64,000 bases of DNA from Candidatus Loosdrechtia aerotolerans (GTDB taxonomy: Bacteria; Planctomycetota; Brocadiia; Brocadiales; Brocadiaceae), in NCBI GenBank assembly GCA_021646405.1, contig SOER01000011.1, positions 1-64,000 on the forward strand. The letters are read 5' to 3'. A program made the position numbers and the translations under genes. Numbering within the stretch: position 1 is the stretch's first letter; each line of letters starts with the position of its first letter. Positions 6,967 to 64,000 of the stretch are shown piece after piece. Under the pieces are notes generated by a model. The model was given only the letters and a program-made list of their open reading frames with translations. It ran no database searches and was not told the origin of the DNA.

Positions 6967-7020
6967 TACAGGAAAATATTTCTGGTTGGGTTTTATTTCC
7001 ATCCTCATATGAACAGTAAA

Positions 7021-11367: not shown

Positions 11368-11544
11368 TGCTAACCCCATGATAAAAAATTTGGATAATTT
11401 ATATTGATGAAGAGAGGGGTAATTTATTTTTTGAACCAAAATAACCCTTTCTAAAACATCAAATACTATCATATTTTCCAGGAGTAATGCAAATGTAATT
11501 GGTTGAAAGTTATCAAATACCTTCTGATTAATACATACAATCAC

Positions 11545-11573
11545 TTGACAAAATGTAGTATTCTTGTTACAGT
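11545..11573 (+). promoter_or_regulatory. Sigma-70-type promoter for ricT-metG
   Basis: TTGACA at 11545-11550 and TACAGT at 11568-11573 have 17-base spacing. Transcription should start near 11580, about 40 bases before the ricT ATG. Confidence 0.75.
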
Positions 11574-11621
11574 AAGGTGATATTCCGATAGTATTTATCT
11601 AGATTACTTCGAAAAATCTCC

Positions 11622-12488: not shown

Positions 12489-14023
12489 ATAAAAATACCT
12501 TTTATCTTACAACGCCTATTTATTATGTTAATGATATACCACACATTGGGCATTCTTATACAACTATTGCTGCTGATGTCCTGGCCCGATATAAAAAAAT
12601 GAGAGGCTTTGACGTTTTCTTTTTAACAGGAACAGATGAACATGGACAAAAAATACAGAAGGCGGCACAGGCATGTAATAAGACCCCTATAGAATTTGTA
12701 AATACGATAGTTGATAAGTTTAAGGTTTTATGGAAAGAACTGAGTATTTCCAATGATGACTTCATAAGGACAACAGATGAACGACACTGTTGTCGTGTGA
12801 AAAGAATCTTTCAACGGATTTACGAGAATGGAGATATTTACTTAGGTGAATATGAAGGATGGTACTGTGTCCCTTGTGAGAGTTTTTGGATTGAATCGCA
12901 GCTTTTTGAAGGTAATAAGTGTCCGGAATGCAGGAGGGTTGTAGAAAGGGTAAAAGAACAAAATTATTTTTTTCGGTTATCAAAATATAAGGATCGCCTT
13001 TTAGAGTATTATGATAAACATCCCTCTTTTATACAACCTGAATCCAGAAGGAATGAATTGTTACAGAGGATTAGATATCAAATCGAGGATATCAGTGTAA
13101 GCCGTTCTGTGGTAGAATGGGGTATTCATGTTCCTATGGACCCACGTCAAACGATTTATGTTTGGATTGATGCACTGTTAAACTATATCACTGCTCTAGG
13201 GTATGATGATAATATGCAAAAGTTTCAAAAATACTGGCCTGCGAGTGTTCACATTATAGGGAAAGAAATTTTGTGGTTTCACGGCGTTATTTGGCCTGCT
13301 ATTCTTATGTCTCTCAGGATTGATTTACCCCATAAAATCTTTGCACATGGATGGTGGACTATTGAGGGACAAAAAATATCAAAATCATTGGGAAATGCAA
13401 TAAACCCTCTCCATATTGTTCGATCATTCGGAAAGGACGCCTATCGGTATTTCTTGCTGAGAGAGGTTCCGTTTGGTTTAGATGGAAATTTTTCCTGCAA
13501 TGCCCTTATCAAGAGAATAAATTCTGATTTGGGAAATGATCTTGGTAATTTACTGCAACGTACCTTAACAATGATTGAAAAATATTTTCATGGAGTTATT
13601 CCTCATATCAATACTGAGGATAATGAATTAAGAGAAGAATCACGAATGACTTACGAAAAAATAGATCGGGAAATGAATGAATTGCAGTTTAGCAGGGCAC
13701 TTGAGATTATCTGGAATTTTGTAGGCTGTGCTAATAAGTTTATAGAAGATAAAAAACCATGGCTCTTAGCTAAAACGGATGGTGTAAGAGAACAGCTTGC
13801 TACTGTTATTGGTTCATTAACTCTGGCGATTAGGGATATCTCCCTTTATATTTATCCATTTATGCCAACAATAGCCATTGAAATCCAACGGCAGCTTGGT
13901 ATTCTAAAAGATGATCAGCCTTTCAATTTAGAATTTCAACAAGGATTCAGGGAAGGTACTGCTGTACAGAAAGGTAAACCCTTATTTCCAAAGGTAGAGT
14001 TCTCAGAGGCTTATAGTAAATAG
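12485..14023 (+). CDS. metG: Methionyl-tRNA synthetase
   Basis: 512 residues from a TTG start that overlaps the ricT stop (TTGA). Class I signatures are HIGH at residues 21-24 and KISKS near residue 298. A zinc knuckle has one Cys pair in CVPCESF and another in CPECRR. It charges tRNA-Met, including the initiator. The length shows that the C-terminal EMAP/OB tRNA-binding extension found in enzymes of about 650 residues is absent, so this is the short form. Confidence 0.95.
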   Translation: MNKNTFYLTTPIYYVNDIPHIGHSYTTIAADVLARYKKMRGFDVFFLTGTDEHGQKIQKAAQACNKTPIEFVNTIVDKFKVLWKELSISNDDFIRTTDERHCCRVKRIFQRIYENGDIYLGEYEGWYCVPCESFWIESQLFEGNKCPECRRVVERVKEQNYFFRLSKYKDRLLEYYDKHPSFIQPESRRNELLQRIRYQIEDISVSRSVVEWGIHVPMDPRQTIYVWIDALLNYITALGYDDNMQKFQKYWPASVHIIGKEILWFHGVIWPAILMSLRIDLPHKIFAHGWWTIEGQKISKSLGNAINPLHIVRSFGKDAYRYFLLREVPFGLDGNFSCNALIKRINSDLGNDLGNLLQRTLTMIEKYFHGVIPHINTEDNELREESRMTYEKIDREMNELQFSRALEIIWNFVGCANKFIEDKKPWLLAKTDGVREQLATVIGSLTLAIRDISLYIYPFMPTIAIEIQRQLGILKDDQPFNLEFQQGFREGTAVQKGKPLFPKVEFSEAYSK

Positions 14024-14092
14024 AGATAAAAATATTTAAATAATGTGCTGAGATGTTTGCGTAATTGTATCGTGAAGTTTGGAGATATATAT

Positions 14093-14530
14093 ATGACAAA
14101 TGCATGGAACAAAATAAAAGAGATTATCAAGAAAGATCCTCGTTATTCTCCAGTAGCGTATCAATTTGTATTCGAAGCGCTTGATTATACTGCAAATATG
14201 CTTGGGAAAAATCAACACAGGTTAACAGACCAGGAACGCCATGTGACTGGGAAACAGCTTATGGAAGGTATCAGGCAGTACGCCTTAAAGCAATTTGGTT
14301 ATATGGTATTAACCGTATTTGAATTATGGGGCATAAAGCAAGATGCAGATTTTGGAAACGTTGTTTTTAATTTAGTTGAAAGCGGCCTTATGGGAAAGAC
14401 GGAATCTGATTCGAAAGATGATTTTAAAAACAGTTATGACTTTAAAAAAGTTTTTGATGAAGAATTTAAATTGGATGGAAAATGTGATATTCAGCTATCA
14501 TTAAATGCTCTGGGTATTAAAAAAAGGTAA
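14093..14530 (+). CDS. Minf_1886-family protein (Planctomycetes/Verrucomicrobia-restricted)
   Basis: 145 residues starting at ATG 14093 with GGAG eight bases upstream. Conserved blocks YQFVFEALDYT, GKQLMEGIRQYALKQFGYM and VFNLVESGLM fit a small family that I recall as restricted to the PVC superphylum (TIGR04138). Its function is not known. It supports the planctomycete assignment. It follows metG by 69 bases and abuts the convergent SUMF1 gene with no spacer. Confidence 0.8.
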   Translation: MTNAWNKIKEIIKKDPRYSPVAYQFVFEALDYTANMLGKNQHRLTDQERHVTGKQLMEGIRQYALKQFGYMVLTVFELWGIKQDADFGNVVFNLVESGLMGKTESDSKDDFKNSYDFKKVFDEEFKLDGKCDIQLSLNALGIKKR

Positions 14531-15181
14531 TTATGTAACGTCTCTAATATCTTTAACGCACCGGAAGCCGACATTGTTATCTCTGCCCTCCGGATAACTG
14601 CAACTTCTATAGGCACTTTTCAGGATAAAATGATGGTTTACCCATGATCCTCCCCTAACAACGCGAAATTTGTTTTCTTCGTACCAATCTTCACACCATT
14701 CCCAAACATTTCCGGCCATATCGAGACAGCCATAAGGACTTGCACCTGCCTGTCGGTTTCCAACAGGTGCAGGGGCACCTGTATTAGGGTCTAAATTGTA
14801 AACGGCCTTCGTACTATCGGGTTGTGTATTTCCCCATGGATATTCTCTCCCATCAACTCCACGTGCTGCTTTTTCCCACTCTACCTCTCTTGGAAGCCGT
14901 TTACCTGCCCACTGTGCATAAGCAACAACATCGTTCCAGCTAATACCTACAACGGGTTGTAATGGTTTATTAAATCGATTATTATTCCAATAAAATGGTT
15001 CCCTTGCTCCCGTGGTTTCGACAAATTTTTTATATTGTGCATTGGTTATTGGATATTTATCAATATAAAAAGCCTCAACATATATAATCTTTCGCTCCTC
15101 TCCCATGATAAAATTACCCTCAGGTACAAGAACCATTTCTGCACCATCTTTTTCATTGATAATACTCTCTGATCTTATCAT
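14531..15181 (-). CDS. SUMF1/formylglycine-generating-enzyme-family protein
   Basis: 216 residues with the full family pattern: MVLVPEGNFIMGEE, EAFYIDKYPITNAQYKKFV, KRLPREVEWEKAARG, YPWGNTQPD, DMAGNVWEWCEDWY, RVVRGGSW and NVGFRCVKD. The fold is shared by enzymes that oxidise a sulfatase Cys to formylglycine and by proteins that hydroxylate or merely bind ligands. No signal peptide is seen and no sulfatase gene is nearby, so the substrate is unclear. It lies 39 bases downstream of the DUF192 gene and is probably co-transcribed with it. Confidence 0.85.
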   Translation of the reverse strand: MIRSESIINEKDGAEMVLVPEGNFIMGEERKIIYVEAFYIDKYPITNAQYKKFVETTGAREPFYWNNNRFNKPLQPVVGISWNDVVAYAQWAGKRLPREVEWEKAARGVDGREYPWGNTQPDSTKAVYNLDPNTGAPAPVGNRQAGASPYGCLDMAGNVWEWCEDWYEENKFRVVRGGSWVNHHFILKSAYRSCSYPEGRDNNVGFRCVKDIRDVT

Positions 15182-15220
15182 AATTATAGTATCCAGGTAT
15201 CTTGGTTAAAACACCGTATA

Positions 15221-15697
15221 TTAATACTCACTTCCCGCCCTCCTCATTGTTGGAATCTTTACTCTATCGCCTTCTCCTACATTATGTGTTTTAAACCATC
15301 CATCCTTCATTTCTAGTGCGTACATAACCTTTTCTTTTGAGATATGGGTATCTAGACTATAAGGTTTCATTGATTCTATTTGGATAATCCTGCCATCGGC
15401 CTTAATAAAGGCTATTGATAAGGGTATGGAAGTATTTTTCATCCAGAATGATAAAACAGTTTCTTTGGGAAAAATGAATAACATACCCTCATTATTTTTT
15501 AATGTCGTTCGGTGCATGAGTCCTCGAGTATGTTCTTCGGGGGTAATTGCTAATTCTACTTCTAATTCAATTCCACCAATACTTATAGGCAATACTTTGT
15601 TTTTCGACCCATTGCCATAACATACCATATTGAAATTGTTATATCCTATATGGATGCTAAGTACAGCTATAAAAAAGATAATCCATTTTTTGCGCAT
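15221..15697 (-). CDS. Exported DUF192 protein
   Basis: 158 residues with an N-terminal signal segment (WIIFFIAVLSIHIG). The DUF192 core is plain: VELAITPEEHTRGLMHRT, NNEGMLFIFPKE, LSFWMKNTSIPLSIAFI and VMYALEMKDGWF. The family is small, exported and of unknown biochemical role. A promoter at 15752-15779 on this strand drives it together with the SUMF1-type gene downstream. Confidence 0.85.
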   Translation of the reverse strand: MRKKWIIFFIAVLSIHIGYNNFNMVCYGNGSKNKVLPISIGGIELEVELAITPEEHTRGLMHRTTLKNNEGMLFIFPKETVLSFWMKNTSIPLSIAFIKADGRIIQIESMKPYSLDTHISKEKVMYALEMKDGWFKTHNVGEGDRVKIPTMRRAGSEY

Positions 15698-15751
15698 TGT
15701 AAATATTCTCTGGATGATTTTTACGGGAGACCTTCTTTATTGTACAGGAAT

Positions 15752-15779
15752 ATTTTACGTGCGCAAAAATTAAAGTCAA
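15752..15779 (-). promoter_or_regulatory. Sigma-70-type promoter for the DUF192/SUMF1 pair
   Basis: On the minus strand TTGACT (15779-15774) and TAAAAT (15757-15752) are 16 bases apart. Predicted transcription start near 15745, about 48 bases before the ATG at 15697. Confidence 0.6.
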
Positions 15780-15793
15780 ACTATTTTCCAAAC

Positions 15794-15822
15794 TTGACTT
15801 ACTTATATGAAAGGGATATAGT
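15794..15822 (+). promoter_or_regulatory. Sigma-70-type promoter giving a near-leaderless tilS transcript
   Basis: TTGACT at 15794-15799 and TATAGT at 15817-15822 have the optimal 17-base spacing. The start of transcription falls at about 15829, only about three bases before the tilS ATG at 15832, and no Shine-Dalgarno sequence is present. Confidence 0.65.
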
Positions 15823-15831
15823 TTTTATAAT

Positions 15832-17280
15832 ATGAAACTAAACAGACTCCCATTTGAGATCTTTAAGATTATAAACAGATATAGCCTTATTAAACTACAT
15901 GATTCAATTGTCATTGGCGTATCTGGTGGACCTGATTCCGTTGCCCTTTTAAAAATACTCCATACTCTTAACATTGTTAAGGACCTTAAGTTACATTTAA
16001 TAGTTGCCCATCTTAACCACCAGCTTCGAGGAAAAGACTCGTCTGATGATGTACGGTTTGTTGAAAACTTATCAAGAGATCTTTCGCTGCCGTTTTTCTC
16101 CAAAAATGTTAATATCCAGGTGCTATCGGATCAGACAAAAAGTTCAATCGAAGAAACAGCCCGCCGAGAAAGATACAAATTTTTCATGGAATTATCTCTG
16201 AAGCATAATGCCATTTCTGTAGCCACCGGGCATAACGCTGATGATAATGTAGAAACGCTTCTTCATCGTATAATCAGAGGGACTGGATTATTAGGGCTTG
16301 GAGGGATACCAATAAAACGTTCATTGAAAGAAGACCCTCCCATCCAACTTATCCGGCCGCTTCTTTTTACATGGAGAAGAGAAATTATTGCATATCTTGA
16401 AAGAGAACAATTCCATTACAGGATAGATAAATCTAATTATGAAACAGGGTATTTCCGGAACAGAATACGGATTGAGTTGATTCCATTGTTAGAGAATAGA
16501 TTTAATCCAAATATCAAAAATACTCTTATACAACTGTGTCAGATCCTGAATGCCAATAATGAATATCTCTCTTCAGAAGCAGAAAAGATATTAACGGATT
16601 GTACCATAGAAAGTACCTCAGATTCATATAGCATTGATGTTAATTTTTTAAGGAAGCAACCAAAAGTATTACAACACGTGGTGCTTCAAAAAATACTGAA
16701 TACAATGAATGTTCCGTTAAAAGAGATTACTTATAAGCATTATACCAGGATACTTAATGAAATAATCAAAATGGGAAAGGGGCGATATTTCCAATTCCCC
16801 GGGAGACTTTATTCGTGGTATGAGCACAGAATACTTTACTTTAGAAAGGGGGCTTTGTTTAAACCTTATAAACCATTAATATCCGGGACTTCTATCCGCA
16901 TACCGGGAGTAACGCCTATTTATCCATTAGGACAAATAGTATCTGAAATTCAGGATGTTCGGGACTTTTCGCTCGAAACATTTAAGAAACATAAGACAGA
17001 ATATGAAGAAGCGTTTGATTTACAGAGCATTATAATGCCTCTTGTCGTAAGATCGCGCAAGAAAGGTGATACGGTTTCTCCTTTAGGGATGGATGGTCAT
17101 AAGAAACTAAAAGACCTGTTTATCGATAAAAAGGTTCCTGTAAACGAACGTGATACCATTCCTGTTGTTGCCATGAGTGATCACCCTATTTGGGTCATTG
17201 GAGTATGTATTGACAGGAGAGTAAAGATTAATCCTAATACAAAAAAGATTGTAAAGTTAACCTTTCAAAAATTTTCCTAA
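15832..17280 (+). CDS. tilS: tRNA(Ile)-lysidine synthase
   Basis: 482 residues. The PP-loop motif SGGPDS is at residues 31-36, followed by VAHLNHQLRGKDS, TGHNADDNVET and HRIIRGTGLLGL, all typical of TilS. The long form is present: a middle helical domain and a C-terminal domain with RSRKKGDTVSPLG and KKLKDLFIDKKVP. The enzyme converts C34 of tRNA-Ile(CAU) to lysidine, changing its decoding from AUG to AUA, and is essential in bacteria that use AUA. It has its own divergent promoter. No upstream in-frame start exists ahead of the motif. Confidence 0.93.
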   Translation: MKLNRLPFEIFKIINRYSLIKLHDSIVIGVSGGPDSVALLKILHTLNIVKDLKLHLIVAHLNHQLRGKDSSDDVRFVENLSRDLSLPFFSKNVNIQVLSDQTKSSIEETARRERYKFFMELSLKHNAISVATGHNADDNVETLLHRIIRGTGLLGLGGIPIKRSLKEDPPIQLIRPLLFTWRREIIAYLEREQFHYRIDKSNYETGYFRNRIRIELIPLLENRFNPNIKNTLIQLCQILNANNEYLSSEAEKILTDCTIESTSDSYSIDVNFLRKQPKVLQHVVLQKILNTMNVPLKEITYKHYTRILNEIIKMGKGRYFQFPGRLYSWYEHRILYFRKGALFKPYKPLISGTSIRIPGVTPIYPLGQIVSEIQDVRDFSLETFKKHKTEYEEAFDLQSIIMPLVVRSRKKGDTVSPLGMDGHKKLKDLFIDKKVPVNERDTIPVVAMSDHPIWVIGVCIDRRVKINPNTKKIVKLTFQKFS

Positions 17281-52973: not shown

Positions 52974-53117
52974 AATCATTTTACTGAATAATTATCTTGA
53001 GATATGTGAGATTTTGTTATAAGATTTTATGTGTTTATTTCTGTATGTATAGTTGAAGATATACGGGCATTTCCTGTGTATATCTTTTGTCGTATCCTTC
53101 ATTGTAGGAGAGGTAAT

Positions 53118-54341
53118 ATGATTGGCATATCAAAGTTATATTGTGGTACCGTTGAACCTTCTGATGCATTGCGATATGGGAGAGAATCCGGGAAATTACC
53201 ATCACATTTATTACAATTTTCTCAAGACAAAAAACCCGTTGTAGTATGGAATGTGGGACAACGCTGCAACTTAAAATGTATCCATTGCTATTCCCAATCA
53301 AAGGATATTGAGTATCCTAATGAGCTGACCACGCAAGAGGCAAAAGCCATGCTGGATGACCTCGCAAACTATGGAGCACCAGTAATTCTCTTTTCAGGTG
53401 GTGAACCTCTCATGAGGCCGGATCTCCTTGAACTCATTGGATATGCAAAAGAGAGAGGTTTGCGGGCAGTTATTAGTACAAATGGTACCCTGATTACAAA
53501 AGAGAAGGCAGATGAGTTAAAAAAATTTGGCCTCTCTTATGTCGGAATCAGCTTGGATGGTTTGAAAGTAACGAATGACCGTTTTCGCGGCATACCAGGT
53601 GCTTTTGATGCAGCATTAGAGGGTATTCGAAATTGCATGGCCGTAGGCATTAAAGTAGGGCTGCGATTTACTATTAATAAAAGGAATGCCCACGATATTC
53701 CCGGTATCTTTCAACTTATTGAAGAGGAAAATATACCGCGGGTTTGTTTCTACCATCTCGTTTATTCAGGAAGGGGTTCAAACCTGATAGAAGAAGATCT
53801 TTCTCATCAGGAAACCCGGGACGTTGTTGACCTTATTATGGATAAAACGAAGGAAGCGCATGAAAAAGGGAGAAAAATAGAGGTGCTTACTGTAGATAAT
53901 CATGCAGATGGTCCGTATGTATACTTGCGTTTATTAAAGGAAAATCCAAAGAGGGCAGAAGATGTATACGAGCTTCTCCAATGGAATGAAGGAAACAGTT
54001 CAGGTAAGGGGCTTGCTTGTATAAGTTGGGATGGAGAGGTACATGCTGATCAGTTCTGGAGGCACTATTCTTTTGGAAACGTTAGAAAGAGAAGGTTTAG
54101 CGAGATATGGGAGGATGTTTCTCATGAATTGATGGGTAAATTGAAAAATAAAAATCCTTATATTAAAGGACGTTGTGCAAAATGTAAATGGCTCAATATC
54201 TGCGGTGGAAATTTCAGAGCGAGGGCAGAGGCGTATTATGGTGATATGTGGGAACAAGATCCGGCCTGTTACCTTACTGATGAGGAGATAGGTATTGAAA
54301 CCAATTTACCAAACAGAGGAAAACGAAAAGTAGTTGTTTGA
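53118..54341 (+). CDS. ahbC: Radical SAM enzyme of the AhbC/NirJ heme family
   Basis: 407 residues from ATG 53118 with AGGAGAGG upstream; the longer frame from 53031 lacks support. The radical SAM cysteines are C50, C54 and C57 (RCNLKCIHCYS), followed by FSGGEPLMRPD. The C-terminal SPASM-type cluster region has CAKCKWLNICGGNFRARAE. The opening MIGISKLYCGTVEPSDALRYG is, as I recall, typical of AhbC (12,18-didecarboxysiroheme deacetylase), which serves the siroheme route to heme b. NirJ, for heme d1, is the close alternative. Either fits an organism loaded with heme proteins. No partner ahb genes are adjacent. Confidence 0.78.
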   Translation: MIGISKLYCGTVEPSDALRYGRESGKLPSHLLQFSQDKKPVVVWNVGQRCNLKCIHCYSQSKDIEYPNELTTQEAKAMLDDLANYGAPVILFSGGEPLMRPDLLELIGYAKERGLRAVISTNGTLITKEKADELKKFGLSYVGISLDGLKVTNDRFRGIPGAFDAALEGIRNCMAVGIKVGLRFTINKRNAHDIPGIFQLIEEENIPRVCFYHLVYSGRGSNLIEEDLSHQETRDVVDLIMDKTKEAHEKGRKIEVLTVDNHADGPYVYLRLLKENPKRAEDVYELLQWNEGNSSGKGLACISWDGEVHADQFWRHYSFGNVRKRRFSEIWEDVSHELMGKLKNKNPYIKGRCAKCKWLNICGGNFRARAEAYYGDMWEQDPACYLTDEEIGIETNLPNRGKRKVVV

Positions 54342-54459: not shown

Positions 54460-55701
54460 TTAAAATCTATAATTAAAATTTATAGCTAGTATGTGTGTTA
54501 ATAAGTCGTAACGTCCGTCAATCGTTTCTCCCGGGATATTTTCTCCTGCTGAATTATCTATTGTTCTGTTTTCGTAAAATACTATACCATAAGCTATGTC
54601 TATCCATTTGTTTAAATTCTTACCCCAACTATATCCAAAACCAGTAAATAGTGCATGTCTGCTGCTTTGGGGGACTGACGGCTCAAAGGTCTCTGCTGGA
54701 ACCGGTGATTCATGGAAGGCATAACCACCTCTCACTCTCAGATTTTCACTGAGAGTATATTCTCCTCCAAGAGCAAATCCCCATGTATTATCCCAATTCC
54801 TTACATCTTCTATATCTCCAAGCGGCGGATCTGTTGTAAATCTCAGGACATCAAATCGTGACCAGTGTGTCCATTGAACATCTGCCTCAATACTCCAGAG
54901 ATTTTTAAACTTGTATGCATAACCTAATGAAAGCATTTCCGGCAGTGTTGCTGTTGTTTTGATTTTTGAATCAAGTGCCGTTACCGGATCACTTAAATTG
55001 GACAATTTTAGATCCCCATCGAAGTCTATGTCTGCCTTGCTTCTGAATGAAAAACCAATACTATGGCTTTGAGAAATAGTATATAATATGCCGATATTAT
55101 ATCCAAAGGCATCACCATGCATATCAAGGTCCCTGAATCCTTCAGGAGGGACACGGCTTTCCAACTCGGTCTCTGCATAGTAGTAATCTAATCCTGCACC
55201 TATTGATAGAAAAGAAAACGGTTTATAGGTAAGTGTGGGATTTATAGTAATAATTTTCAAATCAAAATCTGTGACAACAAACCTGGAGAATCCATCTTCA
55301 TCCCATTTACCGTTAAGGCCGTACGGTGCTGTTACTCCAAGCCCTATGGCTAATGTATCTTTAATAATTGGGCTGGCAAAAAATATGTTTGGTATGGTAT
55401 TTATTGTTGTATCCATATTCTCATCGACACCTTCATTTGCATTGATGCCATGATATTCTACGGTCGGATAGATAAGGCCTGCACCAAGGGAAACCTCTGG
55501 TCGTTGAAGTTGTGTAAGGCCTGCCGGATTAAATGCTATTGCAGAAGCATCATCAGCGCGAGCTAGAAAAGCATTTCCCTGAGCCAATGCTGAAGCACTA
55601 AAGACAGGGTTATGGAGCCCGGAGGCTATTTGCGCTAATGCGTCTGTTGCGTGAAGGGAAAATACGAGAATAAGAATGTAAATAGTGGCTAATATCTTCA
55701 T
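54460..55701 (-). CDS. Outer-membrane FadL/OmpP1-family porin
   Basis: 413 residues with a signal peptide ending at ATDALAQ. The family signature is near the N-terminus: GNAFLARADDASAIAFNPAGLTQL, with the NPAGL motif. The remainder is alternating beta strands and ends in a typical outer-membrane terminal phenylalanine (INFNYRF). FadL proteins pass long-chain fatty acids or other hydrophobic molecules through the outer membrane. It lies 57 bases after the HD-GYP regulator on the same strand and may share its transcript. Confidence 0.88.
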   Translation of the reverse strand: MKILATIYILILVFSLHATDALAQIASGLHNPVFSASALAQGNAFLARADDASAIAFNPAGLTQLQRPEVSLGAGLIYPTVEYHGINANEGVDENMDTTINTIPNIFFASPIIKDTLAIGLGVTAPYGLNGKWDEDGFSRFVVTDFDLKIITINPTLTYKPFSFLSIGAGLDYYYAETELESRVPPEGFRDLDMHGDAFGYNIGILYTISQSHSIGFSFRSKADIDFDGDLKLSNLSDPVTALDSKIKTTATLPEMLSLGYAYKFKNLWSIEADVQWTHWSRFDVLRFTTDPPLGDIEDVRNWDNTWGFALGGEYTLSENLRVRGGYAFHESPVPAETFEPSVPQSSRHALFTGFGYSWGKNLNKWIDIAYGIVFYENRTIDNSAGENIPGETIDGRYDLLTHILAINFNYRF

Positions 55702-55758
55702 CTCTTTTTTGTAATTATATAATGCTATTCTTTGGTTAAGAGATTGCAGAGGATATGT

Positions 55759-56760
55759 TTAAATATGATGATAGTTTTTGTATTTATCAATGATATCAAG
55801 AACCTTTTCAGTTAAATGAGGGGTAAATTGGGTATCTATTCTCTTCGAGATAATATCTAATGCAATTTTGTGCGAATACTTTTTCCGATAATGTCTGTCG
55901 TTCGTTAAGGCGTCATATGCATCGATTATAGAGAATACTGCCGCTTCATAAGGTATTTCAGATCCTTTTAAACCACAAGGATAACCTTCCCCATTATACC
56001 ATTCATGATGGTGACGTACAATTGATAAACCATCTTTTAAAAAATCAATAGGTTCAAGGATTTTGTAACCAATCTCCGGATGATGCTTCATTACTTCGAA
56101 TTCTTCTTTCGAAAGCTTCCCGGGTTTTGTTAATACCTTATCATGTATCCCTATTTTTCCAATATCATGAAGGAATGCTCCGAATCGTAAAATTTCAATC
56201 TGGGATTTACTGAAACCAAGTTCATCTGCAATCAAACAAAATAACCAAGACACCTTTTTTGAATGGGCTGCAGTGTATGAATCTTTGGCATCTATAGCAA
56301 GTAAAAGGGTTTGAGTGGTAGAAATAAAGTTTTTCTGAATATCACTCCTCATCTTATATATTAATGCTTTTGTTTTTGATTGTTCTTTGCGATAATGAAG
56401 AGCTCTTTCTACCGTTGATCGTATTTCTGATAAATTAAAGGGTTTGACAATATAATCAAATGCTCCATTCCGCAGTGCTGTAATTGCAGTTTGTGTAGAA
56501 GGAAAAGCGGTAATTATGACAATAGGAATAGTAGAATGAACCGATTTTACTTCCTTGAGAAAATCCAGACCATTTGATTTCGGCATCCTTATATCGAGAA
56601 AAATCATTTCGGGTTTAACACTCGGAAAACTGCTGATTGCCTCGTCTATAGTCGAGGTAGTAAAAACAGAATATGTATCCTTGAGAGTCATTTTCAATGA
56701 TTCTCTAACACCAAGGTCGTCATCAATGACGAGTATATTTGCTGATTTTTTTTGAATCAT
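55759..56760 (-). CDS. Response regulator with HD-GYP phosphodiesterase output
   Basis: 333 residues from ATG 56760 with AAGGGG eight bases upstream; the longer frame to 56823 lacks a good site. The receiver domain (about 8-122) has the phospho-acceptor Asp in PEMIFLDIRMPKSNG and the lysine in FDYIVKPFN. The HD-GYP domain (about 150-325) has FLHDIGKIGI and NGEGYPCGLKG, so both metal and GYP motifs are intact. It should hydrolyse cyclic di-GMP in response to a kinase signal. No kinase is directly adjacent on this strand. Confidence 0.92.
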   Translation of the reverse strand: MIQKKSANILVIDDDLGVRESLKMTLKDTYSVFTTSTIDEAISSFPSVKPEMIFLDIRMPKSNGLDFLKEVKSVHSTIPIVIITAFPSTQTAITALRNGAFDYIVKPFNLSEIRSTVERALHYRKEQSKTKALIYKMRSDIQKNFISTTQTLLLAIDAKDSYTAAHSKKVSWLFCLIADELGFSKSQIEILRFGAFLHDIGKIGIHDKVLTKPGKLSKEEFEVMKHHPEIGYKILEPIDFLKDGLSIVRHHHEWYNGEGYPCGLKGSEIPYEAAVFSIIDAYDALTNDRHYRKKYSHKIALDIISKRIDTQFTPHLTEKVLDIIDKYKNYHHI

Positions 56761-57263
56761 ATTGTAACCCCTTATGATTTTAGAAAAGAGAACAGGATAA
56801 ATATTATGCATTTTTTGTACCACCTTTGCAAGATCTACCGCAAATATAATTTGTACTATTTTTATAAGTAAATAATTTGCTGAATACTATTAGGAAAAAG
56901 TTAAACTTAATATGCTATTTCGTTTGTTAATCAACTGTTCTTTATTAAACAAAATTGTGCATATTTGCCCAATTTTGAACATTAATTCTTGGTTTTTTGC
57001 TTTAAAAAAAACATATTAAGGTAAAAAAAATTCGACAATTAAGTTTTCTTAGAGGATAAAAAGACTTGTAAATGGATGCTCTTGTGGCTATATTAGGGAC
57101 GAGGTAACAAATATTTTCCGGTTTATATCAGTAAACTAGTGAAGTTTTTTCGGCTTAAAAATACCTAAATTAAATTTTACATCTCTTTATTCGGTTGAGA
57201 ATTTGGTAGGTCTTTTATTCTGTTTGCAGAGTTTGAATCTTCTGGTAATAATGTGTTAATCGT
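56761..57263. other. Long regulatory intergenic region
   Basis: About 500 bases between the divergent HD-GYP and REC-GAF-PAS genes, very AT-rich on the left. No reading frame looks coding. It contains a 28-bp dyad at 56950-56977 and leads into a sigma-54 promoter at 57264. I found no clear sigma-70 promoter for either flanking gene. Confidence 0.6.
56950..56977. promoter_or_regulatory. 28-bp imperfect palindrome, candidate activator site
   Basis: Arms CAAAATTG and CAATTTTG are perfect inverted copies, and the inner part continues as GCA...TGC with mismatches at only two of 14 pairs. The centre is about 300 bases upstream of the sigma-54 promoter, a distance typical for enhancer sites of NtrC-type activators. 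It could equally be an operator for the divergent HD-GYP gene. Confidence 0.5.
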
Positions 57264-57279
57264 TGGCACAAAAGTTGCT
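57264..57279 (+). promoter_or_regulatory. Consensus sigma-54 (-24/-12) promoter
   Basis: TGGCAC (57264-57269), then A and four bases, then TTGCT (57275-57279) fits TGGCAC-R-N4-TTGCW at every defined position. Transcription should start near 57291, leaving a 170-base leader to the ATG at 57464. It is the only such site I noticed in an intergenic region of the window. Confidence 0.75.
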
Positions 57280-57463
57280 CCTTTATTGTTCGCTCCGGTT
57301 CGGGAGTTTTCACAAGATTCTGGGATAGTTACAAAAGTATTGGTTCTTAGGGTGGGGATTTTGTGATGATAATAGAGCTCTTTATTTCAAGATCAATGAT
57401 AAATCGAAGGTGTTATTCCTGTCGAACGTCAGTTTAGCATGTAGCTTTTGGTGAGGAGGGGCT

Positions 57464-58948
57464 ATGTACTCTTTTTTGGTAGTCTCCAATGATAGTTCAA
57501 TGTACAATTTTTTTAAAAGATCCTTAAGTGAAGATTGTATAATTTACCTTGCCAAATCACCTGATGATGCATTACAAATATCCCTGAAAAGAGATATAGA
57601 TATTATCTTTTTGGATATTCTCTTAAACAACAGAGGGGCAAACAAGGTTATAGAAGGGCTCCAGCAGGCTAATAATGACTCTATGGTTATTGCAATCGTT
57701 CCTGAATCTCAGCCAACACTATCCGAGGAAGCTATACGACTGGGTGCTTATGAACTTCTTGAAACACCACTAAAAAAAGAAGCATTACAGCGTATTTCAA
57801 AACGGGTGCTAGAAAATCAGGAACTGAAAAGGGAACTCGGTTTTGTTCAATCACAGATAAAAAGCTTAAAGCCGGAAAATATGAGATTAACAGAACTATC
57901 TTTTCATAAGCAAACGAATATGAGCGACCTGCATTTACCATACAAGGAGATTTTCCAGAAATTCTCAAAGGCATTAACCCAGGTTTATGATCTCGGAAGA
58001 CTTACCGATCTTATTGTAGAGGCACTTGCAGAGTTGTTTAAGGTTGGACGGGTCGTTTGTATCCTTGTTTATAAAGGTGATGATTTCTGTAAACCCTATC
58101 GCTGTCTCGGCTTTGACGAAGCAGTTTTAAGAAATATCCACTTTGCAAGTAACCAGGGCATTATTCACTGGTTATCCAGACATCACCAGATATTGCATAA
58201 GGATGTTATCGAGAGAGAGGCAGCCACAGATCAGTTAAACATGCGTGAGGCAATTCACATCCAAAAGGAACTGAATCTCTTGCAGGCACAATTATGCGTA
58301 CCTATCTTTGCCAGTGGAAATCTTTGCAGTGTAATCACATTAGGGAATAAGATTACGGGAAAGGCATTTTTTGATGAGGATATTGAGTTGCTCTCTATGC
58401 TGTCAGGGTATATTGGTATGGCAATAGAAAATGCCCTGCTGTACCAGGAAGTAAATCACCGGAAGATTCATAATGAGAATGTCCTGGAGAATATTCCCTA
58501 TGGCATAATTTCCATTGACACGAAATATAAGGTAAATACCTTCAACAAAAGTGCTGCAAGGATTCTGCATATTGCGCAGGAAGATGTCCTGGGAAAGGAT
58601 GTTAAGTACGTAGGTTCTGTTTTTGCTGATTTTCTTCTGCGAACGCTCAAAGAGAAAAAGACGTATAGGATGCAAGAGGTTGTTCATCCGGTTAGCCATG
58701 CAACGTATGATGTGAGTACATCGCTATTGTTAGACGGTACCAGAGAACTCGGGGCAATTATGATATTCTCAGATTTAAGTGAAGTTGTAAAATTCGAAAC
58801 AAAAATAAAGGACTTGGAGAAATTGGTGAATAGCTGTCTGGGTGATTCTGAAAATACCGTTTATAGAGATGTAGCGCAGGCGGTTACCAATTTATCGAGG
58901 AGTTGGATCTCTGAACGCCAACGGTTAAACCGAAACCACGAAACATAA
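57464..58948 (+). CDS. Receiver-GAF-PAS regulatory protein without output domain
   Basis: 494 residues with a strong GAGGAGG site. A receiver domain (about 1-120) keeps the acceptor Asp D51 (IIFLDILL). A coiled linker leads to a GAF domain (about 165-330, ending DIELLSMLSGYIGMAIENALLY) and a PAS domain (about 335-445, IPYGIISIDTKYKVNTFNKSAARIL). There is no histidine-kinase, GGDEF or DNA-binding domain after the PAS. It may be a phosphorelay adaptor or sensor that acts through protein contacts. The GAF-PAS part resembles that of the sensor at 62324, suggesting paired evolution. Confidence 0.82.
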   Translation: MYSFLVVSNDSSMYNFFKRSLSEDCIIYLAKSPDDALQISLKRDIDIIFLDILLNNRGANKVIEGLQQANNDSMVIAIVPESQPTLSEEAIRLGAYELLETPLKKEALQRISKRVLENQELKRELGFVQSQIKSLKPENMRLTELSFHKQTNMSDLHLPYKEIFQKFSKALTQVYDLGRLTDLIVEALAELFKVGRVVCILVYKGDDFCKPYRCLGFDEAVLRNIHFASNQGIIHWLSRHHQILHKDVIEREAATDQLNMREAIHIQKELNLLQAQLCVPIFASGNLCSVITLGNKITGKAFFDEDIELLSMLSGYIGMAIENALLYQEVNHRKIHNENVLENIPYGIISIDTKYKVNTFNKSAARILHIAQEDVLGKDVKYVGSVFADFLLRTLKEKKTYRMQEVVHPVSHATYDVSTSLLLDGTRELGAIMIFSDLSEVVKFETKIKDLEKLVNSCLGDSENTVYRDVAQAVTNLSRSWISERQRLNRNHET

Positions 58949-58973
58949 AGTGTTTGTAATCAAATGGGGCAGT

Positions 58974-59213
58974 ATGGAACTGACCCATCAGTTAATGAAA
59001 GAGATCTGTATTTATCCTATCTTTCCCCAATTTTCTTCAGATATATCATATCAGCTTTTTTATACTGCTATTTCTAAAAACAATCCCCTTCTTCTGTACA
59101 CAGATAATGAGATTATTAAATACACTGAAACTCTGCTATGCACTCTCTTTGTGATAAATCATTTACATGTCACAATAAGCGATTCTCAAGGTAATATTTT
59201 TTACATATTGTAA
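58974..59213 (+). CDS. Small protein of unknown function
   Basis: 79 residues from ATG 58974, with GGGG just upstream; an in-frame GTG at 58950 would add eight residues. The sequence (MELTHQLMKEICIYPIF...) has no signal peptide, no Cys pattern and no family I recognise. It lies 25 bases after the REC-GAF-PAS gene and 35 bases before the radical SAM gene, in a run of same-strand genes, which is the main argument that it is real. Confidence 0.5.
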   Translation: MELTHQLMKEICIYPIFPQFSSDISYQLFYTAISKNNPLLLYTDNEIIKYTETLLCTLFVINHLHVTISDSQGNIFYIL

Positions 59214-59248
59214 ATAATTTATGTGATTTTTGAGGACTTAGTATCTTT

Positions 59249-61048
59249 ATGAATAGTACACAAGATATAGATCTTATGTTGTGGAATTCGTTCATGGGGA
59301 AGGCCTACTCGGTTAGTGACTGTTTTAAGGAAAATGGTATTGGAATACTAAGAAGGGCATGTAAGGAATCAGGGTTGAATATTATAATTGAAGACCCTGC
59401 GCAGATTGAATTTTATACATCCTTCACGCATAACAAGCTTATGCAAAGATTATCTGGGCTTTTTGTACAGATTTTTAAAGAAAGAACCGCTGGCGATACT
59501 GTGCTTCTGAGGAAAGAGTGGAATATTCTCCAGGATGAGCTTGCGAAGATTATCAAAGAGAGGATGGAGAAATATATTGATGATTTAGCCCGAAAGATAT
59601 ATGAGAATCAAATAAAGGTACTTGGAATAAAAACCTGGCTTGGTGACAGATTTGTGTATTCTGAAAAGCTTGCCCGCAAAGTAAGTGAACTGAGTCCAAA
59701 TACTGTCATAATTGCTGGTGGGCCGCAAGTTAATCAATTTAAGACCCACGCACTGGAAAAAAGCCCTTTCGATTTTTGTATTGATGTTGAAGGCGAAACA
59801 ACCCTCATACAGATTATTACCATAGTAAAGGAAATGTACTCCCGGAGCTATTCGAAGCGCGAGGTAATAAAAAGAATTACTTCCCTTGCAGAAGAGGATA
59901 AAATTGCAAATCTCATATACAGAGATAGCAACGGAATAGTAAGAGGGACAACTATTAAAAGAATCTCTTTAAACTTAAAATCTTTTCCGTTGTATGAAGA
60001 GGGGGATGGCAAGGTAAATATTGCAGTAATAAACGAATCGTCGGGATGCTATTATGGAAAATGTAATTTCTGTACGCATCCAAACATTACAGGAGGATAT
60101 CAGCCGAGAGATGTAGGTACAACCATTGAAGAAATTAAGAAGACTATTAAAGAGGTAGGTATTGGGCTCTTTCGGTTTGCGGGTTCCGCAACACCGATAT
60201 CACTCAGCAGGAGAATCGCTCGTGCACTATTAGAAGAAGGTGTAATGATAGAGTATTCGATGTTTGTTCGAGTAGAAGTCAATGCACGGGAACGAATGGC
60301 AGAGCTGATTAATTCGTATGAAACGATAATACGTTCCGGGCTCCGGGCCGTTTTTTTAGGTGTCGAGGTGGCGAATGATGAGGTCCTCTCAAAAGTTATG
60401 AACAAAGGCAGTTCTGCAGAAGATGCTTACTATACCATTAAGGCAATAAAACAGGCATCTTACAATCAAAAAAAATATCTTGATGTTGGTGCAAGTTTTA
60501 TTTATCCTTGTCCATTACCCTGTGGGAGCGATATAACTCATGAACAGATTTTGAAAGAGAATTTATACTTACTGCGTACATTAAAAGATGAGAATTATAA
60601 ACCAGATTCTGTTCTGATAACTCCTGGTGCACCCCTGCCAGCGACGAACTGGCAATTAGAACCCGACCGGTTTAGTTTTGAATTACCGGAAGATTATGTC
60701 CAGACGCTTTTACGGTATGAATACGAACTAACAAAAGACCCAAGTACCTGGCCCGAGCTGAATATCTCCTTAAATGGAATAAAGTTTTTAGATATGCTTA
60801 TGATGACTGGAACAATGGAGAAAAAGATCAGAGATATGGGATATACCGTAAATGTTTCTGATGAACATTGCCTGGCGGCAAGAAGTGCCGGTTTCATTGG
60901 CCAAAGGGGTCTGGAGTTGTTTAAAATTAAGAGTGATATGGCCTTACTAACAACAGACTATAGGTTCCTTAAAGACGTTTATCAGAAAATAAACGCATAT
61001 AGCTATAGAGTAGCAGAGAGAAATTCTTTTGACAATTCACATGATTAA
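59249..61048 (+). CDS. B12-binding-type radical SAM protein
   Basis: 599 residues. An N-terminal helical region (about 1-120) precedes a Rossmann-like cobalamin-type domain (IKVLGIKTWLGDRFVYSEKL...NTVIIAGGPQV, FCIDVEGE). The cobalamin His motif DxHxxG is absent, as in most of this class. The radical SAM cluster is C267, C272 and C275 (GCYYGKCNFC), so the first spacing is four, not the usual three, residues. The barrel continues through FRFAGSATPISL and FLGVEVANDEVL. Enzymes of this class methylate or rearrange unreactive carbons. A ketosynthase follows after 23 bases, pointing to acyl-chain chemistry. Confidence 0.85.
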   Translation: MNSTQDIDLMLWNSFMGKAYSVSDCFKENGIGILRRACKESGLNIIIEDPAQIEFYTSFTHNKLMQRLSGLFVQIFKERTAGDTVLLRKEWNILQDELAKIIKERMEKYIDDLARKIYENQIKVLGIKTWLGDRFVYSEKLARKVSELSPNTVIIAGGPQVNQFKTHALEKSPFDFCIDVEGETTLIQIITIVKEMYSRSYSKREVIKRITSLAEEDKIANLIYRDSNGIVRGTTIKRISLNLKSFPLYEEGDGKVNIAVINESSGCYYGKCNFCTHPNITGGYQPRDVGTTIEEIKKTIKEVGIGLFRFAGSATPISLSRRIARALLEEGVMIEYSMFVRVEVNARERMAELINSYETIIRSGLRAVFLGVEVANDEVLSKVMNKGSSAEDAYYTIKAIKQASYNQKKYLDVGASFIYPCPLPCGSDITHEQILKENLYLLRTLKDENYKPDSVLITPGAPLPATNWQLEPDRFSFELPEDYVQTLLRYEYELTKDPSTWPELNISLNGIKFLDMLMMTGTMEKKIRDMGYTVNVSDEHCLAARSAGFIGQRGLELFKIKSDMALLTTDYRFLKDVYQKINAYSYRVAERNSFDNSHD

Positions 61049-61071
61049 GTAGCTCTGAGGAGGAAAATCTT

Positions 61072-62316
61072 ATGATAACAAGACGCGCTGTCATAACTGG
61101 TCTGGGGATATTAGCTCCTAATGGGAACGGAAAAGATGAGTATTGGGATGCGCTTGTTCATGGAATATCAGGTATAAAAAGGATTACCTTCTTTGATCCA
61201 TCTTCTTTGAGTACGCAAATTGCCGGGGAGGTTAAAAATTTTAATCCTTGTGATTATTTTGATTCAAAATTAGTTAAACGTACTGCCCGATTTACGCACC
61301 TTGCTATCGCTGCAGCGAAGATGGCATTACTGGATTCCGGGATTGACTTAAACAAGGAAAACAGAAACAGATGTGGTGTATGTTTTGGAACAACAGTAGG
61401 GGCTGAAAATGATATATATGAACGGCAACACAAGAGATTTTTAGAGCGTGGTCAGAATGGGGTGAGCCGCCTTACTGCTCCTGAATTAACGCCACATGTA
61501 ACAACGGGTTATATTTGTTCTGCGCTGAACATTACTGGCCCAAATTCAACATCATCATCAGGGTGTTCTACCGGCCTTGATGTAATGAATTCCGGCTATA
61601 AAATGATTAAGCAGGGAGAGGTTGATGTGATGGTTGTGGGGAGTTCCGATGCCCCTATTTTCCCCTTTCCCATGTCTACCCTCTGTGTATTGGGGATTCT
61701 CTCAAAGAGAAATAACGAGCCAGAGAAGGCGTCAAGGCCATATGATAAGGATCGTGATGGCATGGTGCTGAGTGAAGGCGGAGCGGCAGTTGTAATTGAA
61801 GAGTTAAATCACGCCCTGAATAGAGGGGCAGATATTTATGCTGAAATCCTGTCGTATGCCTCAACCTGCGAAGCGCAAGAAGTTGTTCAGGCTGATACAA
61901 GTGGACAGGCATTAGTGTCTGCATTAGAACAGGCGTTGGCAAATGGTAAAGTTCTCAAAGAAGAAATAGATTATATCTGCGCTCACGGGAATGCTATTCC
62001 AAACTATGACGTAGCGGAAACCAATGCCTTTAAGACCTTTTTTCGTGATCGTATGTATAAAATTCCGGTAAGCTCTGTCAAATCTATGACAGGGCAATCA
62101 TTTGCTGCAGGAGGCGGTTTTCAGGTAGTGGCAACGTGTCTTAGTTTAAAAAATGCAATTATTCCTCCTACGATTAACCTCGATGTACCCGATCCTTGCT
62201 GCAACCTCGATTATGTACCAAACCGTGCCAGGTATTTTACCATGGATACTGCGTTGATAAACAGCCATAGCGTGGGCGGAACGCATGCTGTTCTCGTCCT
62301 GAGGAAGTATCAGTAG
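61072..62316 (+). CDS. FabF-like beta-ketoacyl synthase with Cys-His-Gln active site
   Basis: 414 residues with a good GAGGAGG site. The thiolase fold is complete and aligns along its length with KAS II: RRAVITGLGILAPNG at the start, nucleophile C165 in SSSGCSTGLD, first His H305 in CAHGNAIPNYD. The second catalytic His of KSMTGH is replaced by Q342 (KSMTGQSFAAGGG). The usual AHGTST is AHGNAI. FabF enzymes elongate acyl-ACP using malonyl-ACP with a Cys-His-His triad. A polar Gln may still support condensation, as Asn does in KAS III, or shift the enzyme to another reaction. It is tightly spaced between the radical SAM and sensor genes. Confidence 0.88.
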   Translation: MITRRAVITGLGILAPNGNGKDEYWDALVHGISGIKRITFFDPSSLSTQIAGEVKNFNPCDYFDSKLVKRTARFTHLAIAAAKMALLDSGIDLNKENRNRCGVCFGTTVGAENDIYERQHKRFLERGQNGVSRLTAPELTPHVTTGYICSALNITGPNSTSSSGCSTGLDVMNSGYKMIKQGEVDVMVVGSSDAPIFPFPMSTLCVLGILSKRNNEPEKASRPYDKDRDGMVLSEGGAAVVIEELNHALNRGADIYAEILSYASTCEAQEVVQADTSGQALVSALEQALANGKVLKEEIDYICAHGNAIPNYDVAETNAFKTFFRDRMYKIPVSSVKSMTGQSFAAGGGFQVVATCLSLKNAIIPPTINLDVPDPCCNLDYVPNRARYFTMDTALINSHSVGGTHAVLVLRKYQ

Positions 62317-62323
62317 GCTGGGT

Positions 62324-64000
62324 ATGTTTTTAAGCCAAATAGAGTTTATTTTTATATCACTACTGCATGCAGGACTTGGATTCTTTGTATTTCTAAAAGA
62401 TCCAAAAAATATAATTAACAAAAGGTTCTGTATCTTTGCTTGTGTTTTTTCTCTATGGATATTTTTTATTTATTTTACGCTTCGTACCACAGATCCTGTA
62501 TCGGCCGTTTTCAGGCTGAGATTGGTTTTTTGTGCGGCTGCTTTTATTCCATCCACTTTTTTCTTTTTTACGTCTGTCTTTCCTGACCGGGTGGAAAAAT
62601 TTACTGATCGGTGTTGCTGTATCTCCTTCTTTGTCATAAGTACCGGTTTGGTATTTTTTTCTTCCTATATTGTTGAATCTTTATCCTTTATACGACAATC
62701 CCCTTATGCCAGATACGGTCCGTTATTCCCCTTGTTTTGGTTTTACTTTATCGTTTGCATGGCGTATTCTCTGTATAACCTTTATAGAAAAAGTGTTCAC
62801 TATCATGGAATAAAGAGATTGCAGATTCAATACCTGTACTTCGGGGTAGCAGTATCTGTGTTTCTTGGGAGCATTACAAATTTTTTTTTACCATTACTAG
62901 GGATATGGCAGGTTGAGAAATTTGTTCCTTTCCAGTCCATTCCTATTCCTGCGGCTGTGGCTTATGCTATTGTAAAATACCACCTTATGGATATTAGTAT
63001 AGTAATTAAGCGGAGCACTACCTATGTAATGTTGTCTATAGCACTGAGTGCAATTTATTTTAGTGTCGGGTTATTTCTTGGAAATATACTTCCCGTCTCA
63101 GATTACAAAAATACCATTACGATTATCATTTCTACAGTAGTAATGGTTTTGACTTTTGTATCCGCTAAAGAATCAATCCAATACATTATTGAAAAGATTC
63201 TATTCCATACGAAATACAGCCATCCGAAAATACTGAGTGATTCTACCGTGATGTTTTCATCCATCTACGATTTGCATGAACTTCTTCGTTATGCAATCCA
63301 GTATTTATATGATTCTGTGGGTATTGAAAAAATATGTATCCTGTTAAAGGATACAGAAACCAGGCATTATAATTTAAAAGCAGCAATAAATTTCTCACCC
63401 GAGGATAATTTGTTTCTTCTGAACCAGGATGTTATTGTTACATGGCTTTGCCGGAATAAAACGGTTCTCTCTAAGGATCAAATGCACCGTTTTGCAAAAG
63501 ATACATTTGAATATTTGCTGGAAGATAGAATGGCATCCCTCAATATCGATAGTTGTATTCCTGTCTTTCAGGAGAATGACCTCTTTGGTATCATTTTTTT
63601 AGGGAAGAAGATAAATAAAAAAATCTTTACCCAGGAGGATATTCAAATGTTTCTCGCCTTTTCTGGTCAGCTGGCTATGGCAGCGAATAATGCCCGTCTC
63701 TATATGGGATTGAAAGAGGCTAAAGTTTACCGGGATAACATCCTTCAAAGTTTGAAAAACGGTGTTATTGTTATTGATAACAAAGGTAATATTACTTTTA
63801 TTAATAGCGAGGCAAGAAAAATCCTTGGATTAAAGGATACCTGTACAACAGAGCTGATATTTAAAGACCTTGGGCAAGACGCTTACAGGGTGATCAGATA
63901 CACGCTGAATAGTGATGTGGAATATCATAATATCGAAATACATATCAGCAAAGGCAAGAAAAAGATGCCTTGTGGTATGACCACGACAAAACTGAAAACA
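62324..64000 (+). CDS. Polytopic sensor protein with GAF and PAS domains (partial, 3' end missing)
   Basis: The frame is open from ATG 62324 to the window edge, 559 codons, eight bases after the ketosynthase stop. The first about 290 residues have eight or nine membrane helices, like the N-terminal region of PrsK-type histidine kinases. A GAF domain (about 315-465, FTQEDIQMFLAFSGQLAMAANNARLY) and a PAS domain (from about 470, LKNGVIVIDNKGNITFINSEARKILG) follow. A kinase core would lie beyond the window and is only expected, not seen. It probably works with the REC-GAF-PAS protein upstream. Confidence 0.8.
   Translation, partial: MFLSQIEFIFISLLHAGLGFFVFLKDPKNIINKRFCIFACVFSLWIFFIYFTLRTTDPVSAVFRLRLVFCAAAFIPSTFFFFTSVFPDRVEKFTDRCCCISFFVISTGLVFFSSYIVESLSFIRQSPYARYGPLFPLFWFYFIVCMAYSLYNLYRKSVHYHGIKRLQIQYLYFGVAVSVFLGSITNFFLPLLGIWQVEKFVPFQSIPIPAAVAYAIVKYHLMDISIVIKRSTTYVMLSIALSAIYFSVGLFLGNILPVSDYKNTITIIISTVVMVLTFVSAKESIQYIIEKILFHTKYSHPKILSDSTVMFSSIYDLHELLRYAIQYLYDSVGIEKICILLKDTETRHYNLKAAINFSPEDNLFLLNQDVIVTWLCRNKTVLSKDQMHRFAKDTFEYLLEDRMASLNIDSCIPVFQENDLFGIIFLGKKINKKIFTQEDIQMFLAFSGQLAMAANNARLYMGLKEAKVYRDNILQSLKNGVIVIDNKGNITFINSEARKILGLKDTCTTELIFKDLGQDAYRVIRYTLNSDVEYHNIEIHISKGKKKMPCGMTTTKLKT

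Follow-up and report, generated by a model that had tools for sequence, protein, structure and literature searches.

The question raised by this locus is whether acyl-chain enzymes encoded among two-component genes in an anammox bacterium serve a regulated lipid modification, or whether they make a signal that is read by a receptor encoded beside them. The locus lies in the window analysed here, the first 64,000 bases of contig C2 of the Candidatus Loosdrechtia aerotolerans genome G000 (3.26 Mb), which encodes the hydrazine synthase alpha family and thus belongs to an anammox bacterium. It includes genes for a REC-GAF-PAS regulator, a B12-type radical SAM enzyme, a FabF-like ketosynthase (KS) and a histidine kinase with a seven-transmembrane (7TM) sensor domain, and divergent genes for a FadL-type outer-membrane channel and a REC-HD-GYP response regulator. 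A preliminary description of the window had proposed a regulated lipid or polyketide modification system. Comparison with related genomes revealed that the KS gene and the 7TM domain are replaced together, and on this sequence evidence there is about an even chance that the cell makes both a signal and its receptor from this locus.

The relatives comprised 62 Brocadiales genomes for counts of the radical SAM, kinase and FadL genes, and 39 genomes in the first KS search. They include Jettenia ecosi (G017), Kuenenia hertensis (G015), Brocadia sapporoensis (G016) and K. stuttgartiensis MBR1 (G010). Close relatives were compared in Jettenia (G012, G005 and G017), in Brocadia (G020/G022) and in genus g9 (G014/G023 and G009/G021). 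Gene content, gene order and joint distribution were computed directly, as were the altered catalytic positions of the KS, the combined replacement of KS and 7TM, and the match between KS/7TM class and gene content in Brocadia.

Joint polymorphism of the ketosynthase and the kinase sensor domain

The KS gene (coordinates 61072 to 62316, forward strand) is followed by the gene for an 857 aa kinase (62324 to 64000, forward strand, continuing to contig position 64897), the stop codon of which is 897 bases past the end of the window. The kinase had been described as a polytopic GAF-PAS sensor, and Pfam confirmed the HisKA_7TM, GAF and PAS domains, but with HisKA and HATPase_c domains encoded beyond the window it is also a complete histidine kinase (7TM-GAF-PAS-HisKA-HATPase). 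The 7TM sensor domain occupies residues 1 to 224 (62324 to 62995, forward strand; Pfam HisKA_7TM at residues 9 to 224) and forms the second half of a polymorphic block, the first half of which is the KS gene.

Nucleotide identity of ~90–98% in the flanks was found to fall to ~67–83% over KS and 7TM in Jettenia (G012 compared with G005 or G017), in G020/G022 and in G014/G023, and G009/G021 showed the same drop relative to 93% identity in segment F1. Between G012 and G005, the FadL, HD-GYP and regulator genes are 96–98% identical and the C-terminal part of the kinase is mostly 93–100% identical, while identity is 79% for KS and 67–72% for the first 180 kinase residues. No such drop was seen between G005 and G017, and pairs with no KS switch had no 7TM switch either. 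Third-position distances in the switch pairs were 0.34–0.46 for KS and 7TM versus 0.05–0.14 for F1, indicating that whole alleles have been replaced, and at least four apparent joint exchanges were found among close relatives. In a partial Mantel test controlling for F1, the N-terminal part of the radical SAM gene and the kinase, KS and 7TM co-varied (r = 0.71, p = 0.0002), and no co-variation of FadL or HD-GYP with KS or 7TM was detected (p 0.195 or more).

Among the 114 genes comparable over ~300 kb of G012 aligned with G005, KS showed the greatest divergence, and only the KS/7TM block contained four or more consecutive divergent windows. KS again ranked first in the background of G020/G022, where only 17 genes were comparable and the gene order differed. 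In approximately unbiased (AU) tests, the KS tree rejected the groups G012+G005+G017, G014+G023 and G020+G022 (p = 8e-5, 1.6e-4 and 3e-5, respectively), all of which are supported at 99–100% by the kinase part, and the 7TM tree rejected G014+G023 and G020+G022. The KS and 7TM trees are largely concordant, with G023 placed with G009, and G001 with G005/G017 (more weakly in the 7TM tree). The g9 genome G048, in which the contig ends at KS, falls within a Brocadia KS/7TM class, and KS/7TM alleles are common to different genera.

In four comparisons the 3′ breakpoint was estimated to lie at the C-terminal limit of the Pfam 7TM domain (kinase residues 209, 211, 216 and 219); one further comparison placed it at residue 253, and both comparisons with G009 placed it at residue 144. 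The 5′ limit of the exchanged tract is variable, ranging from residue 251 of the radical SAM protein to residue 111 of KS.

In Brocadia, the KS/7TM class matches the presence of three further genes encoding a chain-length-factor-like (CLF) KS, a canonical KS and an acyl carrier protein (ACP), found in 7 genomes and missing from 4. G020 (without this set) and G022 (with it) are sisters by the kinase part, and the intervening radical SAM gene has not been switched; the class match despite this ties the sensor domain to biosynthetic gene content and not merely to the neighbouring KS. The co-variation of KS and 7TM suggests a product and its sensor, rather than a lipid modification that is simply regulated.

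An independent metagenome bin, G044, contains two 3.7 kb contigs, one 100% identical to the G012 allele and the other 99.97% identical to the G005 allele. Their start and end points coincide, the pattern that an assembly bubble would produce where two alleles have the same flanks. This suggests that two alleles were present within one community. These contigs (G044:C104 and G044:C105; L123 and L124) place Jettenia alleles inside a Brocadia bin and represent bin contamination.

Distribution and gene order

High-scoring matches to the radical SAM gene are present in 26 of the 62 Brocadiales genomes, covering seven genera, six in the family of the window (Brocadiaceae) and one Anammoxibacter. The KS clade (61–86% identity) was found in the same genomes (among the 39 first searched), as was the kinase, save for a diverged Anammoxibacter copy and the fragmentary G048. 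Close homologues of FadL were present in 22 of the 62 genomes, all of which also carry the kinase, and are mostly located at the locus.

In Brocadiaceae, the order of the divergent FadL/HD-GYP genes followed by REC-GAF-PAS, radical SAM, KS and kinase genes is preserved, with variation in G008 and where contigs end. In one Anammoxibacter genome the order is also conserved, with the kinase gene a few genes apart. Outside Brocadiales, a single relative of the radical SAM protein (36% identity) was found in planctomycete G362, with no KS or two-component genes of the locus adjoining it. The conserved gene order and the occurrence of KS, radical SAM and kinase in nearly the same genomes support the conclusion that enzymes and regulators belong together. 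To this extent the search of gene order in and beyond Brocadiales, which the preliminary description had called for, bore out its proposal of a regulated system.

The ketosynthase and the radical SAM enzyme

The predicted FabF-like character of the KS was confirmed by matches to both ketoacyl-synt domains of Pfam (N and C), and like FabF/KAS II it retains the active-site Cys (Cys165), the first His (His305) and the Lys (Lys337). However, it departs from FabF at several catalytic positions, with malonyl-site and gate residues altered. The second His of the Cys-His-His triad is replaced by Gln342, and Gln was found at this position in 12 of 13 aligned homologues, with His in G022. Further motif changes are HGNAI for HGTST, RDGM for RDGF, and HSVGGTH for the GFGG gate loop. 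The KS fell below the cut-off of the FabF equivalog TIGR03150 (419.2 versus 493.75 bits) and exceeded that of NF005589 (401.3 bits; cut-off 387), and its clade is separate from every other KS of five genomes compared.

In FabF the altered positions are those of malonyl decarboxylation and the gate, and it is therefore likely from the sequence that the KS would perform acyl transfer or an altered condensation. Variability of KS is highest at residues 121–140, 181–220 and 261–300, which in FabF take in positions of the acyl pocket and the gate loop.

The extra operon genes found in part of Brocadia and g8 encode the canonical KS, the ACP and the CLF-like KS, which lacks catalytic residues. ACP is a separate gene, confined to loci with the extra KS/CLF set. 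Elsewhere in the genome of the window, a modular polyketide synthase is probably encoded by a pair of long ORFs of 1363 and 2915 aa that contain ketosynthase domains (G000:C6:46630-54121).

The radical SAM gene (59249 to 61048, forward strand) encodes a CX4CX2C motif (GCYYGKCNFC), the cysteines of which are unchanged across 13 homologues. Pfam scores were 34.3 bits for Radical_SAM (cut-off 29.5) and 30.1 for B12-binding, just under the cut-off of 32.1. An AlphaFold model (pLDDT 78.5) had OxsB, TsrM, MgmA, CysS and TokK among the nearest solved structures (VIA-align Z 15–19, rmsd 3.6–4.3 over 371–418 residues), and the fold shared with these enzymes is predicted for most of the chain. However, sequence identity to them is 12–16%, and a PDB sequence search returned no match at E 1e-5. 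The Fe-S cysteine motif, the domains and the fold together place the enzyme in the B12-binding radical SAM superfamily, as first described.

In the G005 assembly, stop codons are present in the start region of the radical SAM gene (G005:C2:749516-750037), and the 5′ end of this gene may be disrupted or wrongly assembled. Another B12-type radical SAM protein (467 and 468 aa, mutual identity 31%) is encoded next to the Anammoxibacter locus (L039; coordinates 6300 to 7703) and next to the lone G362 homologue (L111; coordinates 12919 to 14325), and is possibly a partner enzyme.

Promoter, regulators and transport

A sequence resembling a sigma-54 (-24/-12) promoter, TGGCACAAAAGTTGC (57264 to 57278, forward strand), precedes the regulator gene and matches the consensus at all 10 of 10 bases, in agreement with the original assignment. 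The pattern TTGGCAC-N5-TTGC has seven perfect matches across the 3.26 Mb genome, and with up to one mismatch on both strands it was found 91 times versus 51 for a reversed-pattern control. A related site, often weaker, lies 5′ of the same regulator gene in most relatives. Nine or 10 of the 10 consensus bases are present at six loci, including that in the window, and approximately 8 of 10 with a GG/GC core at five more; the site is weaker in one Jettenia locus and absent or doubtful in Kuenenia and G012.

The REC-GAF-PAS gene (57464 to 58948, forward strand), assigned using Pfam, encodes a protein in which the switch lysine of REC is Thr. The corresponding regulator includes a histidine-kinase part in Kuenenia (714–722 aa) and Anammoxibacter (699 aa), and the form in the window is a truncated REC-GAF-PAS-histidine kinase, the kinase part having been lost here as in most of the other relatives. 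The regulator and the sensor had been interpreted as two halves of a likely phosphorelay, which holds only in part, as the former is such a truncated protein. In two g9 genomes (L052, coordinates 10922 to 13596; L046, coordinates 5315 to 8128), a partial tandem second copy of REC-GAF-PAS (353 and 360 aa) lies before the full copy. A gene for an NtrC-type sigma-54 activator is located between regulator and radical SAM genes in Brocadia, two Kuenenia genomes (one of them K. hertensis), g8 and Anammoxibacter.

A small protein had been counted as one of five same-strand genes separated by gaps of 7 to 35 bases. The other four were recovered by Pfam, but the 87 aa ORF in question (58950 to 59213, forward strand) has no Pfam match, and the same spacer in relatives, including a genome of the same genus, contains neither a matching ORF nor similar DNA. 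This rules out a conserved small protein or an ACP, and the ORF is probably spacer rather than a gene. The real gap between the regulator and radical SAM genes is consequently ~300 nt, and may hold a separate promoter for the downstream enzymes.

Two divergent genes missing from the preliminary description (54460 to 56823) also belong to the conserved locus. One (54460 to 55701, reverse strand) encodes a FadL/OmpP1-type outer-membrane channel for hydrophobic compounds (Pfam Toluene_X, 242.6 bits). The other (55759 to 56823, reverse strand) encodes the REC-HD-GYP response regulator (Response_reg, 90.3 bits; HD_5, 103.5 bits), which contains HDIGK and GYP motifs, is kept beside the cluster in relatives and is a predicted cyclic-di-GMP phosphodiesterase. 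The FadL genes of Brocadia genomes G045 and G047 share 71% identity mid-gene and ~90% at both ends. Directly upstream of FadL is a gene for a radical SAM protein, apparently of the MoaA/SPASM type (53031 to 54341), which as far as seen is outside the conserved locus. Outside the window, near the end of the contig, lies an apparently incomplete ORF similar to the reverse transcriptase/maturase of group II introns (L002; coordinates 15014 to 15868).

A candidate signalling system

We infer a product that would be of acyl type, secreted and bound by the 7TM domain, and that would control cyclic-di-GMP or the operon itself. KS and the B12-type radical SAM enzyme would build a modified acyl molecule, joined in part of Brocadia by the extra KS, the CLF-like KS and the ACP, and the FadL-type channel would give this hydrophobic product passage across the outer membrane. 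The molecule or its secreted form would be recognised by the 7TM domain, and the kinase would pass the signal to response regulators, namely the NtrC-type activator where present and possibly also the divergent REC-HD-GYP protein, leading to a change in cyclic-di-GMP. Through the sigma-54 promoter, the signal would also feed back positively on the operon. That this amounts to a new class of bacterial cell-cell signalling is a tentative reading, to which we assign slightly less than an even chance. In such a class, an acyl signal made by an altered KS and a B12-type radical SAM enzyme would be read by a 7TM kinase, with alternative types exchanged across species and genera, and would possibly control cyclic-di-GMP and hence granule or biofilm formation.

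A synthase gene and a receptor sensor domain that are jointly polymorphic between conserved flanks resemble a pherotype system, and the locus appears by analogy to behave like one, with no descent from Com or Phc claimed. In the ComQXP pherotypes of Bacillus, most of the variability lies in the synthase and in the membrane portion of the kinase (PMC4008528). As in ComQXPA, a signal-synthesis gene adjoins that for a multi-transmembrane histidine kinase with a highly variable N-terminal membrane domain and a conserved cytoplasmic portion, and several types occur among close strains. However, the Com product is a modified peptide, ComX, whereas the variable enzyme here is a KS with a radical SAM partner, and the proposed outputs are sigma-54 and HD-GYP rather than a ComA-type regulator. 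Pfam named no domain of a ComQ isoprenyl transferase or a ComX peptide on the cluster proteins, though no search for small peptides was made.

The PhcBSRQ system of Ralstonia uses a fatty-acid-derived signal, with one of two types per strain (PMC8578825). By description rather than by sequence, it also has a synthase gene beside that for a sensor histidine kinase, and PhcR, a soluble receiver/histidine kinase with no DNA-binding domain, resembles the REC-GAF-PAS(-HK) regulator. However, PhcB is described as a methyltransferase, which is neither a KS nor a radical SAM enzyme, and the description of the phc operon names no sigma-54 activator, FadL or HD-GYP gene. Literature searches on methyl-branched fatty acids in anammox bacteria, sigma-54 in Brocadia, DSF signalling in anammox bacteria and KS with cobalamin radical SAM enzymes found nothing relevant.

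Alternative explanations

Several observations weigh against a signal and receptor. KS and 7TM are adjacent on the DNA and a single crossover swaps both, so their co-variation counts for less than it would between distant genes. The groups used in the AU tests were picked after the identity drops had been seen, the 7TM tree alone fails to reject the Jettenia clade G012+G005+G017 (p = 0.08), and the match with CLF-KS-ACP represents at most two independent contrasts. A close homologue of the NtrC-type activator of the locus was not found in the genome of the window, nor in any whole genome of its genus, Jettenia or g9, and a search 5′ of the regulator gene for a conserved activator-binding palindrome found none common to the loci.

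The strongest rival, which we nevertheless consider unlikely, is membrane-lipid homeostasis, in which KS and the radical SAM enzyme would produce a lipid present in small amounts in the membrane or at the surface, and the producer's own 7TM kinase would sense this lipid and adjust its synthesis; phages or habitat would drive lipid diversity, with the sensor following. This accounts for the same co-variation, and is consistent with FabF-like chemistry, a FadL neighbour, a sensor domain within the membrane and a cluster that has no evident secretion gene. However, a swap limited to KS and sensor, leaving the other genes as they were, is the known pattern of signal and receptor, and a cell sensing its own lipid needs no conserved outer-membrane channel. 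If the exchange of the block instead had no functional meaning, its pattern would reflect chance recombination, as divergent tracts are often imported and sensor domains evolve fast in any case. The adjacency of KS and 7TM fits this, as do alleles common to different genera, which indicate that import occurs. Such an origin is nonetheless improbable given that ~300 kb of one pair contains no other such run, that at least four lineages are involved, mostly with the same 3′ limit, and that third-position distances indicate replacement rather than fast protein change.

The original view of a regulated acyl-modification pathway, with the kinase sensing an outside cue unrelated to the product, is compatible with the two-component genes flanking the enzymes and with the conserved sigma-54 site, but leaves the joint exchange of KS and sensor domain unexplained and is likewise given a low probability. 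A conceivable link to ladderane, also raised in the preliminary description, would make the locus one for synthesis of ladderane or another core anammox lipid under sigma-54 control. The distribution is nearly restricted to anammox bacteria, and the ladderane genes proposed in K. stuttgartiensis (Kuste2803, Kuste2805 and others; PMC2649909) also encode B12-type radical SAM proteins and FabB/F paralogues with altered active sites, similar in kind to the enzymes here. However, the locus enzymes belong to other families, with the KS in a separate clade, and the radical SAM protein scored 48.8 bits on the ladderane-associated TIGR04072 (cut-off 360), compared with 305.5 bits for a different gene of G000. 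Genome G010 is a single contig of 4,406,153 bp, the size of the closed K. stuttgartiensis MBR1 genome (PMC5854607), and lacks the radical SAM gene, the KS clade, the kinase and FadL. As K. stuttgartiensis, which makes ladderanes, lacks the locus, the link fails; with the TIGR04072 score this rules it out, and we regard a core-lipid role as extremely improbable. The locus is also missing from many hzsA-positive genomes of a family (f4) that is probably Scalinduaceae.

Implications for anammox bacteria

Natural environments and wastewater plants lose nitrogen through anammox bacteria, which form granules and are hard to obtain in pure culture. If the locus does encode a signal and its receptor, its polymorphism would provide a testable handle on how these bacteria sense one another and might account for the exclusion or coexistence of strains in reactors, and a ketosynthase/radical SAM route would join the known signal chemistry of bacteria. 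As the alleles in public genomes differ within the locus mostly in the synthase and the receptor domain, they represent ready-made test pairs.

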